A DNA stretch of 25,027 nucleotides from a virus, in the IMG/VR virus record IMGVR_UViG_3300032820_000104, positions 1-25,027 of that record; one strand, given 5' to 3'. A model generated the notes under the pieces. The model had not been told where the DNA came from. It was given only the letters and a program-made list of their open reading frames with translations, and did no database searches. This document shows, piece after piece, positions 2,877 through 12,600 of the stretch (position 1 is the stretch's first letter; each line of letters starts with the position of its first letter). Both the position numbers and the translations under genes were made by a program.

Positions 2877-3526
2877 TCCTCCCCCTGTGGCGCTACGAAG
2901 TCGTTATACTCCCCTGGCGGCCTCCCTGTGAAGGTCAGGGTGATACCAAGCTCCTGCTCAAAGACTTTGGTGAGAAGGAACTCCCGCTCATCGTCAGTGA
3001 TTTCCTTGTCGTCATTAATCCTGACGATGGCCCCAGCGGGGTTAGTATGGGCATATTCCAACGCTTCATAGGGAGTGAGGGCATGGATACGGAGCATCTG
3101 TCCTGTCTTAGGATTCACCCTATCTCCCCCCGTGAGGAGGGGCTTCATTTGTGGGTGTTGGTCTGGATAGCGTCCCTGGAAAGCAGGGCCACCAGCCTTG
3201 AACAGCTCGGTTCCCATCCAACCGGCGCCTCTACGGAGTTCCTGACCGCCGGGGGACTGGAGTACGCCATCATCAAATAGTTCCTCGAACTCCAGTTCAC
3301 TGGGCTCACCAACATTCTTGATGAATTCTTCGGGGAACCCTAGTGCACACATGTGGAACCCCATGGGACACATGTCTCCTTTCTCATTGAGGAGACAGGT
3401 GTGATAGGGCTCTACACCAACCGGTATGTTTCCTCCTCTGAGCCACTTGCTTCTATCGATGGTAAGGTTGTTGTAGCGAGGACCAGCATCAGTGGTGAGT
3501 TCATCCCATGGGTCTTTATTCTTCAT
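2873..3526 (-). CDS. Hypothetical protein, 217 aa
   Basis: No function recognised. Near the N-terminus is NNLTIDRSKWLRGG, followed by a short segment with three cysteines (HTCLLNEKGDMCPMGFHMCA) that could bind metal or form a structural core. The remainder is a Glu/Asp-rich helical region with an AHTNPAGAIVRIND segment. The ATG at 3524-3526 lies inside the last codons of a 52-aa upstream gene. The stop overlaps the next gene as ATGA, so it belongs to the same coupled series as the nuclease. Confidence 0.65.
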   Translation of the reverse strand: MKNKDPWDELTTDAGPRYNNLTIDRSKWLRGGNIPVGVEPYHTCLLNEKGDMCPMGFHMCALGFPEEFIKNVGEPSELEFEELFDDGVLQSPGGQELRRGAGWMGTELFKAGGPAFQGRYPDQHPQMKPLLTGGDRVNPKTGQMLRIHALTPYEALEYAHTNPAGAIVRINDDKEITDDEREFLLTKVFEQELGITLTFTGRPPGEYNDFVAPQGEE

Positions 3527-5138: not shown

Positions 5139-5224
5139 CCTTCGCCGTCCTTTCGCTACAAGGCACCCCACCCCCCTGAGTGGGGAGCAGGAGAGCCTCG
5201 TAAGTGATTGAAAACAAAGAACGA

Positions 5225-5387
5225 AACCCACTCTAACGGGGTGCTGTAGTGACTAGAGTGCCCTAGAGTAATACTCTAGTCACTCTAGACTACTCTACCC
5301 CCCACTAGAGTGGGTTAAGTCCAGTAGATAGAGAGAGATAGGAGAGGAGAGAGTAGTATACTCTCCCCCCCTTGGGAATCACTCTAG
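5225..5387. repeat. ACTCTAG inverted-repeat array (possible origin or operator)
   Basis: This region is non-coding except at its right end. It holds the heptamer ACTCTAG or its complement at 5253-5259, 5263-5269, 5273-5279, 5282-5288, 5305-5311 and 5381-5387, plus ACTCTA at 5230-5235 and 5292-5297. TGACTAGAGT (5250-5259) and ACTCTAGTCA (5273-5282) form a perfect 10-bp inverted repeat with a 13-nt loop. AACCCACTCTA (5225-5235) is matched by TAGAGTGGGTT (5307-5317), and GAGAGTA/TACTCTC (5349-5365) makes another hairpin. Dense iterons beside a RepA-type helicase gene fit a replication origin or a cooperative operator. The assignment is inference. Confidence 0.6.
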
Positions 5388-6142
5388 CTTGCCGTTAACA
5401 ACCCGGTATGGTCCCCCGTTGCTAGATGGAACTGTCGGCCAACGTCGATGGTGCTGGAGAACTGAGCCGCTGGCTTCAGCACCTTGATGGCACGAGTGCA
5501 GGCATTGTGCAGCCCGTACATCGAGCGAGGTTGACAGTCAGGCTGATCATCCTGTGTATCGAAGTAGTATCGACACACATCATCGAACAGGTGGAGTGGC
5601 ATCGCTCCCTTCTGGAACAGGTTGAAGATGCGGAGCTTGGCTGTCTGGTCACTAAGCCAGTTGTTCTTCATCATCTCGATGTCGAGGAAGAGTTGCTTGC
5701 TCTGGTCAAGGAACTTGTTGAGTGCTCTGCTCACAATCTCTGGCAGGTTCAGTAGTGTGGTGTGCTTCCTGCTCAGCACATGCTCTGTTCCAGACAGCAT
5801 GAGATTGTCACAGACGAAGACCCGAGCACCAGCTACGCCACGGATTGCAAAGGACTGGTTCGTAGATGACCTGAACCCGAAGCAGGGACCCGTGCCCTCT
5901 CCTGCTTCTGGGCCATGCAGCTGCATGGTGCCAAAGACCCGTGCTCCCTTCTGTGAAATCCCCAACTCCCTCCGTACGACCCTTATCCCTCGGTCAGACA
6001 CCTGATTCTCTATCTCATCGATGAGACGCCAGTGTGGGACAGGCAGGTGCCTCGTGCCCATGGGCTCTGGTGTTGGTAGGTGCCTTAGCTGATCAAGTGT
6101 GACTCTGTGTGACCCTGGTGTGTGCATGAATAACATACTCAT
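5384..6142 (-). CDS. DUF932-like phage/plasmid protein
   Basis: This 252-aa protein resembles the DUF932 (phage/plasmid TIGR03299) family. The central GFRSSTNQSFAIRGVAGARV followed by FVCDNLMLSG matches the family pattern in which a serine/asparagine-rich strand leads into a 'V(C/F).N' core. The C-terminal half is helical (ALNKFLDQSKQLFLDIEMMK) and ends with LHNACTRAIKVLKPAAQFSS. The start has an excellent GAGGAGGAAG site about 6 nt upstream. The biochemical role of DUF932 is not firmly known; such genes cluster with replication and recombination functions in phages and plasmids. Its 3' end borders the ACTCTAG array. Confidence 0.7.
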   Translation of the reverse strand: MSMLFMHTPGSHRVTLDQLRHLPTPEPMGTRHLPVPHWRLIDEIENQVSDRGIRVVRRELGISQKGARVFGTMQLHGPEAGEGTGPCFGFRSSTNQSFAIRGVAGARVFVCDNLMLSGTEHVLSRKHTTLLNLPEIVSRALNKFLDQSKQLFLDIEMMKNNWLSDQTAKLRIFNLFQKGAMPLHLFDDVCRYYFDTQDDQPDCQPRSMYGLHNACTRAIKVLKPAAQFSSTIDVGRQFHLATGDHTGLLTAS

Positions 6143-6238: not shown

Positions 6239-6672
6239 ATGATGGGATCATCTGCTGTCTGTGGCGCACTGCTGCTCAGTGCCCTGTCTTCCTCCCTATT
6301 AAATGTGGATGATGGTGCTGTTCTGATACCGTCCTTGTCGTACTTCCACTCAGCCTCACGGCCCCACACCCCCTTCTGCTTGTTCTTGGTCCGCTTGAAG
6401 CGCACACTTGTTGCAGCCCACAGTGCACGATTGCCAGATGGTAGTTCCATGCTGCGTATGCCCAGCCCTCTCTTCCTGAGCATCCTGCCAAGCTGTGCGT
6501 AGGGCCTGGACTTGGGATGGAACTCCCCCCCTGTCTCCACAGCCTGCCCTGATTTCTCTGTCCTGACGACTGCTCGCACGAGCAGGTTGAAGGGAGTAAG
6601 TTCTCCCCTTGGTCGGTCGATGACCTTGTACTTTCGTGAGATGACATCGAAATCCACTCGCTTGCTTCCCAT
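6235..6672 (-). CDS. Hypothetical basic protein behind a structured leader, 145 aa
   Basis: Function unknown. The protein is rich in Arg and Lys (KRVDFDVISRKYKVIDRPRG, RMLRKRGLGIRS, RFKRTKNKQK) and has an acidic, serine-rich tail, so it could bind DNA or RNA. The start at 6670-6672 is secured by AAGGAGGAATAAGC just upstream. That ribosome site lies only a short distance after the 32-bp helix of the structured RNA at 6705-6855, so expression is likely tied to that leader. A basic protein encoded directly behind a structured leader could be the ligand of that RNA (speculative). Confidence 0.65.
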   Translation of the reverse strand: MGSKRVDFDVISRKYKVIDRPRGELTPFNLLVRAVVRTEKSGQAVETGGEFHPKSRPYAQLGRMLRKRGLGIRSMELPSGNRALWAATSVRFKRTKNKQKGVWGREAEWKYDKDGIRTAPSSTFNREEDRALSSSAPQTADDPII

Positions 6673-6704
6673 GCTTATTCCTCCTTCTGTGTGTGTGTAT
6701 TGGT

Positions 6705-6855
6705 GGTGCCCTGGTCAACGGAGGGAGCACATGAGCGCGGCGCTCGTGTGGCCCGAAGGTCAACTACCCAGCCACGGGAGGGGAGGCTGAGGAGCAGCCT
6801 GGCCCTGGAGGGAAGACAGGGCTGCTCATGTGCTCGCCCCGTCAACCAGAGCACC
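6705..6855 (-). ncRNA. Structured RNA or 5' leader with a 32-bp closing helix
   Basis: This non-coding stretch folds on the minus strand. Bases 6824-6855 pair with 6705-6736 over 32 positions: 27 Watson-Crick pairs, four G-U wobbles and a single C-C mismatch. On the plus strand the wobbles become A-C mismatches, so the fold favours the leftward transcript. Inside the closing helix are three further hairpins: 6802-6807 with 6817-6822, 6784-6789 with 6795-6800, and 6748-6752 with 6771-6775. An extended -10 promoter places the start near 6855, the first base of the helix. No U-tract follows, so it may be the leader of the 145-aa gene. It is not a tRNA and matches no riboswitch I recognise. Confidence 0.6.
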
Positions 6856-6861
6856 GTGGCT

Positions 6862-6870
6862 ATTATGCCA
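6862..6870 (-). promoter_or_regulatory. Extended -10 promoter of the structured RNA
   Basis: On the minus strand the sequence reads TGGCATAAT, a TGn extension plus a -10 box with five of six consensus bases. Counting 7 nt downstream gives a start at about 6855, exactly the first G of the 32-bp helix. A weak -35 (TTAAGT) lies 18 nt upstream. It sits in the last codons of the Rmf-like gene. Confidence 0.5.
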
Positions 6871-7231
6871 TATCCCAGTGACGCCACTTAAGCGCCCTAC
6901 CCAGATTCCACCTCCTGAGCCACTCACCATAGGTTGGTGGCGTTACCAGTGTCCCTGACTCGCACTGTTCACAGCCTTTACAGGCCTTCTCTTTCCCTTT
7001 CATGTGGGCTCGTTCCCAACCAAACGTCCATTCTCGTGCGCTTCCTGCCTCATAGGGGTTGGCCCAGCGTTTGAGCCCCTTTTGATATGCCACTCCTCCC
7101 TGCTTGGCATGCTGAGCAATGTTTGAACCATTCTTTCTTCCCTCCTTGTCTCCGTCCCTGGTTCTTGAGACGATGTAGTCACGCCTCTTGTACCCGCCCC
7201 CGGTTAGTGTGGGCGTTGGTTTCCAGACCAT
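6863..7231 (-). CDS. Rmf-like (ribosome modulation factor-like) protein with CxxCxxC, 122 aa
   Basis: The middle of this protein matches the spacing of ribosome modulation factor, the small protein that promotes 100S ribosome dimers in Gammaproteobacteria. It has AYQKG at 48-52, then NPY at 58-60, then W68 and GW at 71-72, comparable to Rmf's GYQAG...CPY...W.GGW. It is longer than Rmf (about 55 aa), with a basic Gly/Arg-rich N-terminal tail and a CKGCEQC cluster at 84-90 that may bind zinc. The start has GGGAGGTAAGC just upstream and lies 2 nt after the previous stop. A role in modifying host translation is possible. The homology is judged by eye, so confidence is moderate. Confidence 0.55.
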   Translation of the reverse strand: MVWKPTPTLTGGGYKRRDYIVSRTRDGDKEGRKNGSNIAQHAKQGGVAYQKGLKRWANPYEAGSAREWTFGWERAHMKGKEKACKGCEQCESGTLVTPPTYGEWLRRWNLGRALKWRHWDMA

Positions 7232-8609: not shown

Positions 8610-8731
8610 CTTGTCAGCCTCTCCTCCCTCTCTCTTCGCTTCACCATGGTGCAGTTCAGCTTGATGAGCCTCCTCATGTTGGCTATCTCAGCTGGTGTAG
8701 GCTGTTGGTACTGTCTTAGGCTCTTCTTCAT
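8606..8731 (-). CDS. Small basic protein, 41 aa, first gene of its operon
   Basis: The ATG at 8729-8731 follows CAGGGAGGGAGCGC, and the promoter at 8754-8782 lies just before it. The product (MKKSLRQYQQPTPAEIANMR and 21 more residues) is a basic helical peptide ending in KRREREERLTR. The open frame extends to 8998 but would cross the terminator and promoter, so the short form is preferred. Function unknown. Confidence 0.6.
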   Translation of the reverse strand: MKKSLRQYQQPTPAEIANMRRLIKLNCTMVKRREREERLTR

Positions 8732-8753
8732 GCGCTCCCTCCCTGCGAATAGG

Positions 8754-8782
8754 ACCATACCGTTCTTTCCACGCCATCTCAA
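8754..8782 (-). promoter_or_regulatory. Sigma70-like promoter for the leftward small-gene operon
   Basis: On the minus strand, TTGAGA (8777-8782; five of six consensus bases) and TATGGT (8754-8759; four of six) are separated by the optimal 17 nt. The start would fall near 8747, leaving a short leader with the GGGAGGG ribosome site before the ATG at 8731. It lies just downstream of a terminator, as expected for a new transcription unit. Confidence 0.6.
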
Positions 8783-8816
8783 CCCAATACGCTCTGTGTT
8801 GGGCTGGGAAAGAGCG

Positions 8817-8860
8817 AAAAAAAGGGGGAACCCCCTAGGGGCTGGATAGCCCCTAGAGGG
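8817..8860 (-). terminator. Terminator-like hairpin after the 235-aa gene
   Basis: Bases 8831-8843 pair with 8848-8860 (13 pairs on the minus strand, one of them G-U) around a 4-nt loop. On the minus strand the stem is followed by TTCCCCC and seven U. The C-run can pair with the same G-run as the stem base, so two folds compete. On the plus strand the stem is followed by a weaker T-rich tail (TCGTTTTC). Confidence 0.65.
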
Positions 8861-8876
8861 TCGTTTTCTCCCTACC

Positions 8877-11197: not shown

Positions 11198-11327
11198 ACG
11201 TGTCATTGCGTTGCGTCAGGCGGATGAGCCCGTGACGATAGCGAACCTTTCAGCCCGATTCGGTGTGTCGGAGCGGACGATCTACTATTATCTGGCCCTG
11301 TGGCGGGAAGCGGGGGGAGATGTATAG
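11166..11327 (+). CDS. Small helix-turn-helix protein, 53 aa
   Basis: The protein is almost only an HTH of the resolvase/transposase-like type: LTPKQIERVIALRQAD, then IANLSARFGVSERTIYYYLA, where the Gly-Val-Ser turn precedes the recognition helix. The ATG at 11166-11168 lies inside the end of the 219-aa gene, and the stop overlaps the ATPase start. Its position directly before the terminase suggests it could supply the DNA-recognition function of a small terminase, alone or with the 219-aa protein. An alternative is a local transcription factor. Confidence 0.65.
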   Translation: MPKKLTPKQIERVIALRQADEPVTIANLSARFGVSERTIYYYLALWREAGGDV

Positions 11328-12600
11328 CCCACTGGTCTCAGAGAAACGGCTGGCCAAGATTGTCGATGCGATTCGGGTGGCCGATCCGTCGTTCGACCCG
11401 GTTCCCACGTCACAGGGGGAGGCGGCGAGTCGGACGGCACATTTGGCAACCCTTCGGGGGGAGGGCGGAGCCCTGCTCCGCCCACTGAAGCCGGAAGAGG
11501 AACGGTGGATCCTGAATGAACTGGTGCTCTGCAAGTCGTCCTTCACGTATTGGGCGACTCGATACACGCTGATCAAGACGAAAGAGACGTCGTCAACGAC
11601 GTTATTCCCTCTGTTCGAGAGTCAGGAGATCATTCTTGAACGGATTGGGAAGATTGAGGAGCAGTGTAACAGCCGAGAACGGTTGGATGGCATCTTGGTT
11701 GCCATCCTGAAGGCACGGCAACTGGGCGCTTCGACGCTGAGTGAGGCCATGTTGGCCCATCGGGCGTTCTTGTATGGCAATACGACGGCGCTGATTGCCG
11801 CAGATGTCCCGGCGCAGTCCGCCTACCTCTACAATATGTTGGAACGCATCTACGATAACCTACCGTGGTGGATGCAACCGGAGCAAAAGTATCGGGAGAA
11901 GGAAGCGCAGCTGTATTTCGACCAGACAGACAGCCTGATTCTGGTGGAATCGGGGAAATCGGTGCGGGGTGGGTCCACCTTGGGGCAGGAACGGGGCCAG
12001 ATGGCACGAGGAAAGACCATTCCCCTGGCCCATCTGTCCGAAATCTCCACCTGGGAGAATGCAGGGCAGATTGATGACTCGTTAATGCCTGCCATCCCCC
12101 GACATCCCCGGACATTGGCGATTTTCGAGTCCACCGCACGGGGACGGGGCAATGAATGGCACGATATGTGGTTAGTTGCCTGCCGGGGCATCGGTCGGGT
12201 GGTCCCGATCTTCATTCCCTGGTATGGCGAGTCCCACACATACATTGCCAGGGCTCCAGAGGGCTGGGAACCCAGGGATTTGACCAAAGCGCACGCGGAA
12301 CGGGCGGTGGATGTGTCATCCCGATGGTGCGGGAAGACGATTCGACTGACACGGGAGCAGTTGTTCTGGTGGGAAACGACACGGGAAGAGGCCAAGGAGA
12401 AACGGCGGCTGCACACCTTCCTGGCCGAGTATTGTGCGGACCCAAATGAGGCGTTTCAGAACACAGGACAGTCTGTGTTCCCGTTTGAAGTGCTGCATGA
12501 TGTCCGTCAGCGACTGAAGAAGCCGGTTGGGCTGGTTGAGATCCAGCCGAAGACCTATCTTGCGGGGCTGGATAAGGAAGGATTACGTGAACATGACTAA
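11320..12600 (+). CDS. terL: Terminase large subunit, ATPase part (split gene)
   Basis: This is the motor that drives DNA into the procapsid. Motifs are KARQLGASTL at 131-140 (the terminase-style Walker A with Arg before Gln), HLSEIS near 239-243 (Walker B region with catalytic Glu241) and ESTARGRGNEW at 270-280 (coupling motif III). A C-terminal EYCADPNEAFQ...VFPFE normally sits just before the nuclease domain. The protein is 426 aa and stops there; the RNase H-fold nuclease is in a separate gene at 12765. The ATG at 11320-11322 overlaps the HTH gene's stop. A longer reading from 11263 would overlap that gene completely. The two halves may work together without covalent linkage. Confidence 0.9.
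   Translation: MYSPLVSEKRLAKIVDAIRVADPSFDPVPTSQGEAASRTAHLATLRGEGGALLRPLKPEEERWILNELVLCKSSFTYWATRYTLIKTKETSSTTLFPLFESQEIILERIGKIEEQCNSRERLDGILVAILKARQLGASTLSEAMLAHRAFLYGNTTALIAADVPAQSAYLYNMLERIYDNLPWWMQPEQKYREKEAQLYFDQTDSLILVESGKSVRGGSTLGQERGQMARGKTIPLAHLSEISTWENAGQIDDSLMPAIPRHPRTLAIFESTARGRGNEWHDMWLVACRGIGRVVPIFIPWYGESHTYIARAPEGWEPRDLTKAHAERAVDVSSRWCGKTIRLTREQLFWWETTREEAKEKRRLHTFLAEYCADPNEAFQNTGQSVFPFEVLHDVRQRLKKPVGLVEIQPKTYLAGLDKEGLREHD

Follow-up and report, generated by a model that had tools for sequence, protein, structure and literature searches.

A conserved long-stem RNA structure between two genes of a phage operon, possibly an element of the RNase III processing type

An RNA structure in which a helix of 32 columns closes a branched domain is selectively maintained on the minus strand of an environmental phage genome, between two genes of a leftward operon. 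This conclusion is well supported by comparison with a second phage species. From the position and shape of the structure, we infer, with a probability of roughly 45%, that it is a cis-acting intercistronic element that would serve RNase III-type processing and insulation of the mRNA.

Genomic context and fold of the element

The analysed stretch of DNA (hereafter, the window) comprises 25,027 nucleotides of the IMG/VR virus record IMGVR_UViG_3300032820_000104. A nucleotide search against named phages detected no near relative of the window, and searches with the proteins flanking the element identified no close relatives either. The element starts 8 nt after the stop codon of the upstream gene (6863) and ends 32 nt before the ATG of the downstream gene (6672), all on the same strand. 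The features of the locus are as follows, with L004 denoting a genome of the second species.

6863-7231, minus strand: upstream gene encoding a 122-aa protein, with a homologue in L004
6862-6870, minus strand: TGGCATAAT, proposed extended -10
6824-6855, minus strand: 5' arm of the closing helix P1
6802-6822, minus strand: hairpin P2 (6 bp, loop UCUUCCCUC), with one compensatory U-A/C-G change
6739-6799, minus strand: arm P3 (7 bp, 6792-6799 with 6739-6745), bearing P4 and P5
6767-6791, minus strand: hairpin P4, on arm P3
6749-6762, minus strand: hairpin P5, on arm P3, with one compensatory pair
6705-6736, minus strand: 3' arm of the closing helix P1; the C.C mismatch (6836 with 6724) is also found in the second species
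6680-6685, minus strand: Shine-Dalgarno sequence AGGAGG of the 145-aa gene, about 20 nt past the helix
6235-6672, minus strand: downstream gene encoding a 145-aa basic protein of unknown family, with a 55% identical homologue in L004

The product of the upstream gene shows an NPY...W..GW..A motif, and its homologue in L004 (5244-5678) gives a weak match to the Pfam family RMF (ribosome modulation factor; E-value 4e-4, below the curated cut-off). The downstream protein contains about 30 K+R against 17 D+E by hand count, consistent with the description of this gene product as basic in an earlier, sequence-only reading of the locus. The 6705-6855 region is non-coding, given that it sits between two genes with homologues in the second species and differs between the species by a one-base indel.

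On the minus strand, the two arms of P1 form 31 pairs (27 Watson-Crick and 4 G-U) and one C.C mismatch, exactly the helix that the sequence-only reading had proposed. The minus strand has a predicted folding energy of -96.4 kcal/mol (z -7.2), which none of 200 shuffles equalled. The plus strand folds well too, at z -6.4, although A.C mismatches break its closing helix, again as proposed. A helix scan that allowed no gaps gave the window a score of 53.4, against a maximum of 38.0 in 6 Mb of locally shuffled sequence. The interior is branched: in the two-species consensus, P2 adjoins the closing stem and two hairpins sit on a second arm, a pattern that differs somewhat from that of the single-sequence minimum-energy fold.

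Conservation in a second phage species

Relatives were collected via the terminase of the window (11263-12600). Two of the collected genomes, L004 and L005, differ at four places over 15.5 kb, count as one species, and retain the element together with both flanking genes. In the phages L091-L093, no such helix was found, and both flanking genes are absent as well. Scans with the exact arm and stem sequences produced matches in L004 and L005 only, plus two chance ones. The element is 85.6% identical between the window and L004/L005 over 153 bases, compared with 62-64% for the flanking segments. Identity is highest in the paired columns of P1 (94.6%), followed by the interior as a whole (80.5%) and the unpaired bases of the interior (74%). 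At fourfold-degenerate sites, in a comparison that leaves out the 145-aa downstream gene, the two closest neighbouring genes in the alignment are 53% and 40% identical, and the terminase genes 64-70%.

All 52 consensus pairs are kept in both species, including 2 that are changed on both sides and 6 changed on one side; in the latter, only the minus strand retains pairing, via G-U. A consensus fold of the plus strand is less stable, at -66.7 kcal/mol against -81.2 kcal/mol for the minus strand, and has 46 pairs. When the partners are slid by 1-3 columns, pairing falls to 35-42%. Because the exact element is represented by only two independent species, the formal power of the covariation analysis is low, and in the shuffle control 132 of 500 replicates do as well as the real data. 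The RNA reading is well supported because the 52 pairs persist and the one-sided changes work through minus-strand G-U only. Thus, the structured RNA that had been read from the minus strand is corroborated by compensatory and G-U changes and by conservation above that of the flanks, and the element is kept or missing along with its neighbours. Neither of the outcomes named beforehand as refuting the sequence-only reading was seen, be it a lack of compensatory changes or loss of the region from between retained neighbours.

The same data bear on the possibility that the inverted repeat functions at the level of DNA, as mobile element ends, an origin hairpin or a packaging site, rather than as RNA. 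A near-perfect 32-bp inverted repeat resembles terminal inverted repeats, and a single-stranded DNA hairpin, too, would tolerate G-T better than A-C. We nevertheless regard this possibility as very improbable: the repeat is present in a single copy per genome, with none elsewhere, and at the same position in both species; the changes preserve pairing on the transcribed strand; and in all groups of phages with such stems (see below), the strand matches that of the following gene. Its single copy and fixed place in both species also led us to reject a transposon with terminal inverted repeats. Furthermore, a separate repeat cluster at 5200-5400 is a likelier origin or operator.

This cluster belongs to a second conserved non-coding element of the window (5200-5400, minus strand), which aligns with L004 3585-3800 at a mean column identity of 88%. 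Within it, a long hairpin at 5219-5322 (z -6.4) accompanies CACTCTAG/CTAGAGTG repeats; the element lies near an AAA_25 helicase-like gene and is a candidate origin or operator.

Promoter and terminator signals

The sequence-only reading had also assigned the element its own promoter, and this part of the proposal is not supported. The extended -10, TGGCATAAT, is present but overlaps the TAA stop codon of the upstream gene (6863-6865), is accompanied by no -35, and is not conserved, its place in L004 being taken by an unrelated GGGGTGAC-TTCG-GTCACCCC hairpin. A scan of 6500-7200, covering promoters of the sigma-70 type only, detected none, and no terminator was found past the helix. Given that there is no convincing promoter and no terminator, and that a Shine-Dalgarno sequence and an ATG follow, the element is better read as intercistronic, or as the leader of the next gene, inside a leftward operon than as a stand-alone transcript. 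Of the original characterization as a dedicated non-coding RNA or structured 5' leader, then, the conserved structured RNA is supported, and the stand-alone transcript is less favoured.

The operon promoter possibly lies further upstream, past a strong terminator near 8695-8862. On the minus strand at 8690-8862, a conserved sequence containing TTGAGA-17-TATGGT comes after a strong hairpin resembling an intrinsic terminator, GACCCTCTAGGGG...CCCCTAGGGGGTTCCCCCTTTTTTT; this stretch is 80% identical to L004 7274-7436, its surroundings are not, and it is possibly the operon start.

Long-stem elements in other phages

We scanned 80 terminase relatives for long stems. When gaps were allowed in the helix scan, long arms within GC-rich coding DNA reached the scores of real elements, and the analysis was therefore restricted to compact helices. 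Long helices that fall inside the L066-L070 terminase gene were regarded as coding and excluded, and a helix in L009 (2616-2756) was left out because the gene starts inside it. Six long-stem elements without detectable sequence similarity to that of the window were identified, in L006, L007, L012, L018, L035 and the L065-L078 group. Each of the six shares its strand with the gene that comes after it. A Shine-Dalgarno sequence and a start codon are located 12-83 nt past the helix on the same strand in 6 of the 7 groups, the window included, and in the L065-L078 group there is a same-strand gene downstream, the start of which is less certain. The closing stems, counted once per group, contain 23 G-U pairs and no A.C in all seven groups (19 and none without the window); the scan strand was the better-scoring one, so this bias arises in part by selection, but the agreement with the strand of the following gene is independent of it.

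The elements of L006, L007, L012, L035, L067 and L073 fold with z -4.6 to -6.4 against shuffles; for L018, the fold test took in only part of the element. In the L065-L078 group, a covarying structured RNA is carried by L065, L066-L068, L072, L073, L075, L077 and L078 (for example, L073:3983-4105), with 48 pairs, 8 of them compensatory, which is matched by 0 of 500 shuffles; the tested copy of this RNA has no Rfam match. In L018 (5596-6095, minus strand), there is a tandem pair of long-stem hairpins, the second of which encloses a short open frame (69 aa). When genomes were searched for prophage relatives, just one terminase relative emerged, from an Acidobacteria genome, and it yielded no compact helix.

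In a control set of loci gathered with another protein (L089-L168), the frequency of strong helices is similar, but most of them lie within open frames or form palindromes on both strands, and few precede a same-strand gene. Given the similar rate in the control, we claim neither enrichment nor a clade-specific family; the long stems look like a recurrent solution rather than a single RNA family. One control locus, L139, contains a 31-bp inverted repeat (3040-3181), perfect except for one terminal G-U and palindromic on both strands, with a partial copy extending to 3247; this repeat may be a DNA-level element.

It appears quite unlikely that the stems of this terminase lineage constitute a shape-defined class of phage RNA, in which a 20-34-bp stem of unrelated sequence closes a branched domain before a gene and which would act as a dedicated RNA that binds a protein of the phage or the host, not as a simple cleavage site.

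Comparison with known RNAs

The window and 8 related loci have no Rfam matches above the gathering score (the best weak one being Atu_C7, with an E-value of 0.29), and ARAGORN predicts no tRNA or tmRNA genes. Like the proposed cis-acting element, the put-type antiterminator RNAs of HK022 are structured phage RNAs that act in cis from inside an operon or close to its start, but these are about 65-70 nt long and have two stem-loops, whereas the element described here has one long closing stem.

The pRNA of phi29-type phages is comparable to the element in size. It is also a phage RNA with a closing stem that leads into a junction and a shape kept despite little sequence similarity, but the element, in contrast, lies between genes of a non-structural operon and is not found throughout the terminase clade. 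The terminase of the window matches PHROG large terminases, not the phi29-type packaging ATPase, and terminase type, position and the Rfam test all fail to fit a phi29-type pRNA. The loops of P2 and P4, compared by eye only, are both C/U rich and show no complementarity in either species.

A dedicated phage small RNA acting in trans, transcribed from a promoter of its own or cut out of the operon transcript and functional through its branched domain, seems rather unlikely. The enclosed domain is conserved in both sequence and structure, Rfam offers no match, and phage pRNAs can retain their shape at a sequence similarity of only 12% (PMC5340915). These points are offset by the -10 that overlaps a stop codon and is not conserved, by the missing terminator, and by the location of the stem directly before a same-strand gene. 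This kind of element may already have been described under another name.

A possible RNase III-type processing element

RNase III cuts the early mRNA of phage T7 at five sites, producing mono- and dicistronic mRNAs (PMC4858673). Like those sites, the element is a double-stranded stem on the transcribed strand that precedes a gene of a polycistronic phage mRNA, and its near-continuous long stem (31 pairs) and intercistronic position on that strand are what an RNase III site calls for. Under the processing reading, the transcribed region between the RMF-like and basic-protein genes would fold into a stem of about 30 bp closing a branched domain, with the Shine-Dalgarno sequence of the next gene remaining just outside. 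The stem would be a substrate of RNase III from the host, in the manner of T7-type mRNA processing, and its cleavage would separate the two cistrons, providing the downstream mRNA with a defined 5' end and leaving the compact enclosed domain as a by-product or a small RNA. The finding of unrelated sequences with the same stem type before unrelated genes fits a recognised double-stranded stem better than one conserved RNA.

The fit to T7 is incomplete. The R1.1 substrate of T7 is a 60-nt hairpin, whereas here a 28-32-bp stem, the cleavage of which is predicted, encloses a conserved branched domain. The element exceeds R1.1 both in stem length and in the complexity of the domain it encloses. Moreover, the 74% identity of the unpaired interior bases exceeds what a pure double-strand substrate needs. 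This conservation leaves room for a functional RNA within the enclosed domain, or for a leader that is bound or pairs with the Shine-Dalgarno sequence.

Such a leader would control translation of the 145-aa protein, either through a protein or ligand that binds the branched domain or through pairing of CCUCC, in the loops and the 3' arm, with the GGAGG of the Shine-Dalgarno sequence. The element is positioned directly upstream of the latter, the encoded protein is basic, and CCUCC is present in two loops and the 3' arm in both species. Without its partner arm, the 3' arm reduces the accessibility of the Shine-Dalgarno sequence from 0.72 to 0.40 in the window, but the effect is weaker in L004 (from 0.44 to 0.28-0.49); the pairing between the loops and the Shine-Dalgarno sequence is weak, and any C-rich RNA would be expected to contain short CCUCC matches. 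The predicted structure of the 145-aa protein (pLDDT 41) is too poor for judging RNA binding, and the genes after the stems of the other phages have no detectable homology to the 145-aa gene. On balance, translational control appears unlikely, and we favor the processing reading.

Implications for the phage lineage

If the processing reading is correct, a little-known environmental phage lineage repeatedly puts very long RNA stems before operon genes, and the element would offer a small and clearly delimited substrate on which to test how phages beyond the model ones use host RNase III or structured leaders. If the enclosed domain acts on its own, it would represent a new class of phage RNA that is invisible to sequence searches.
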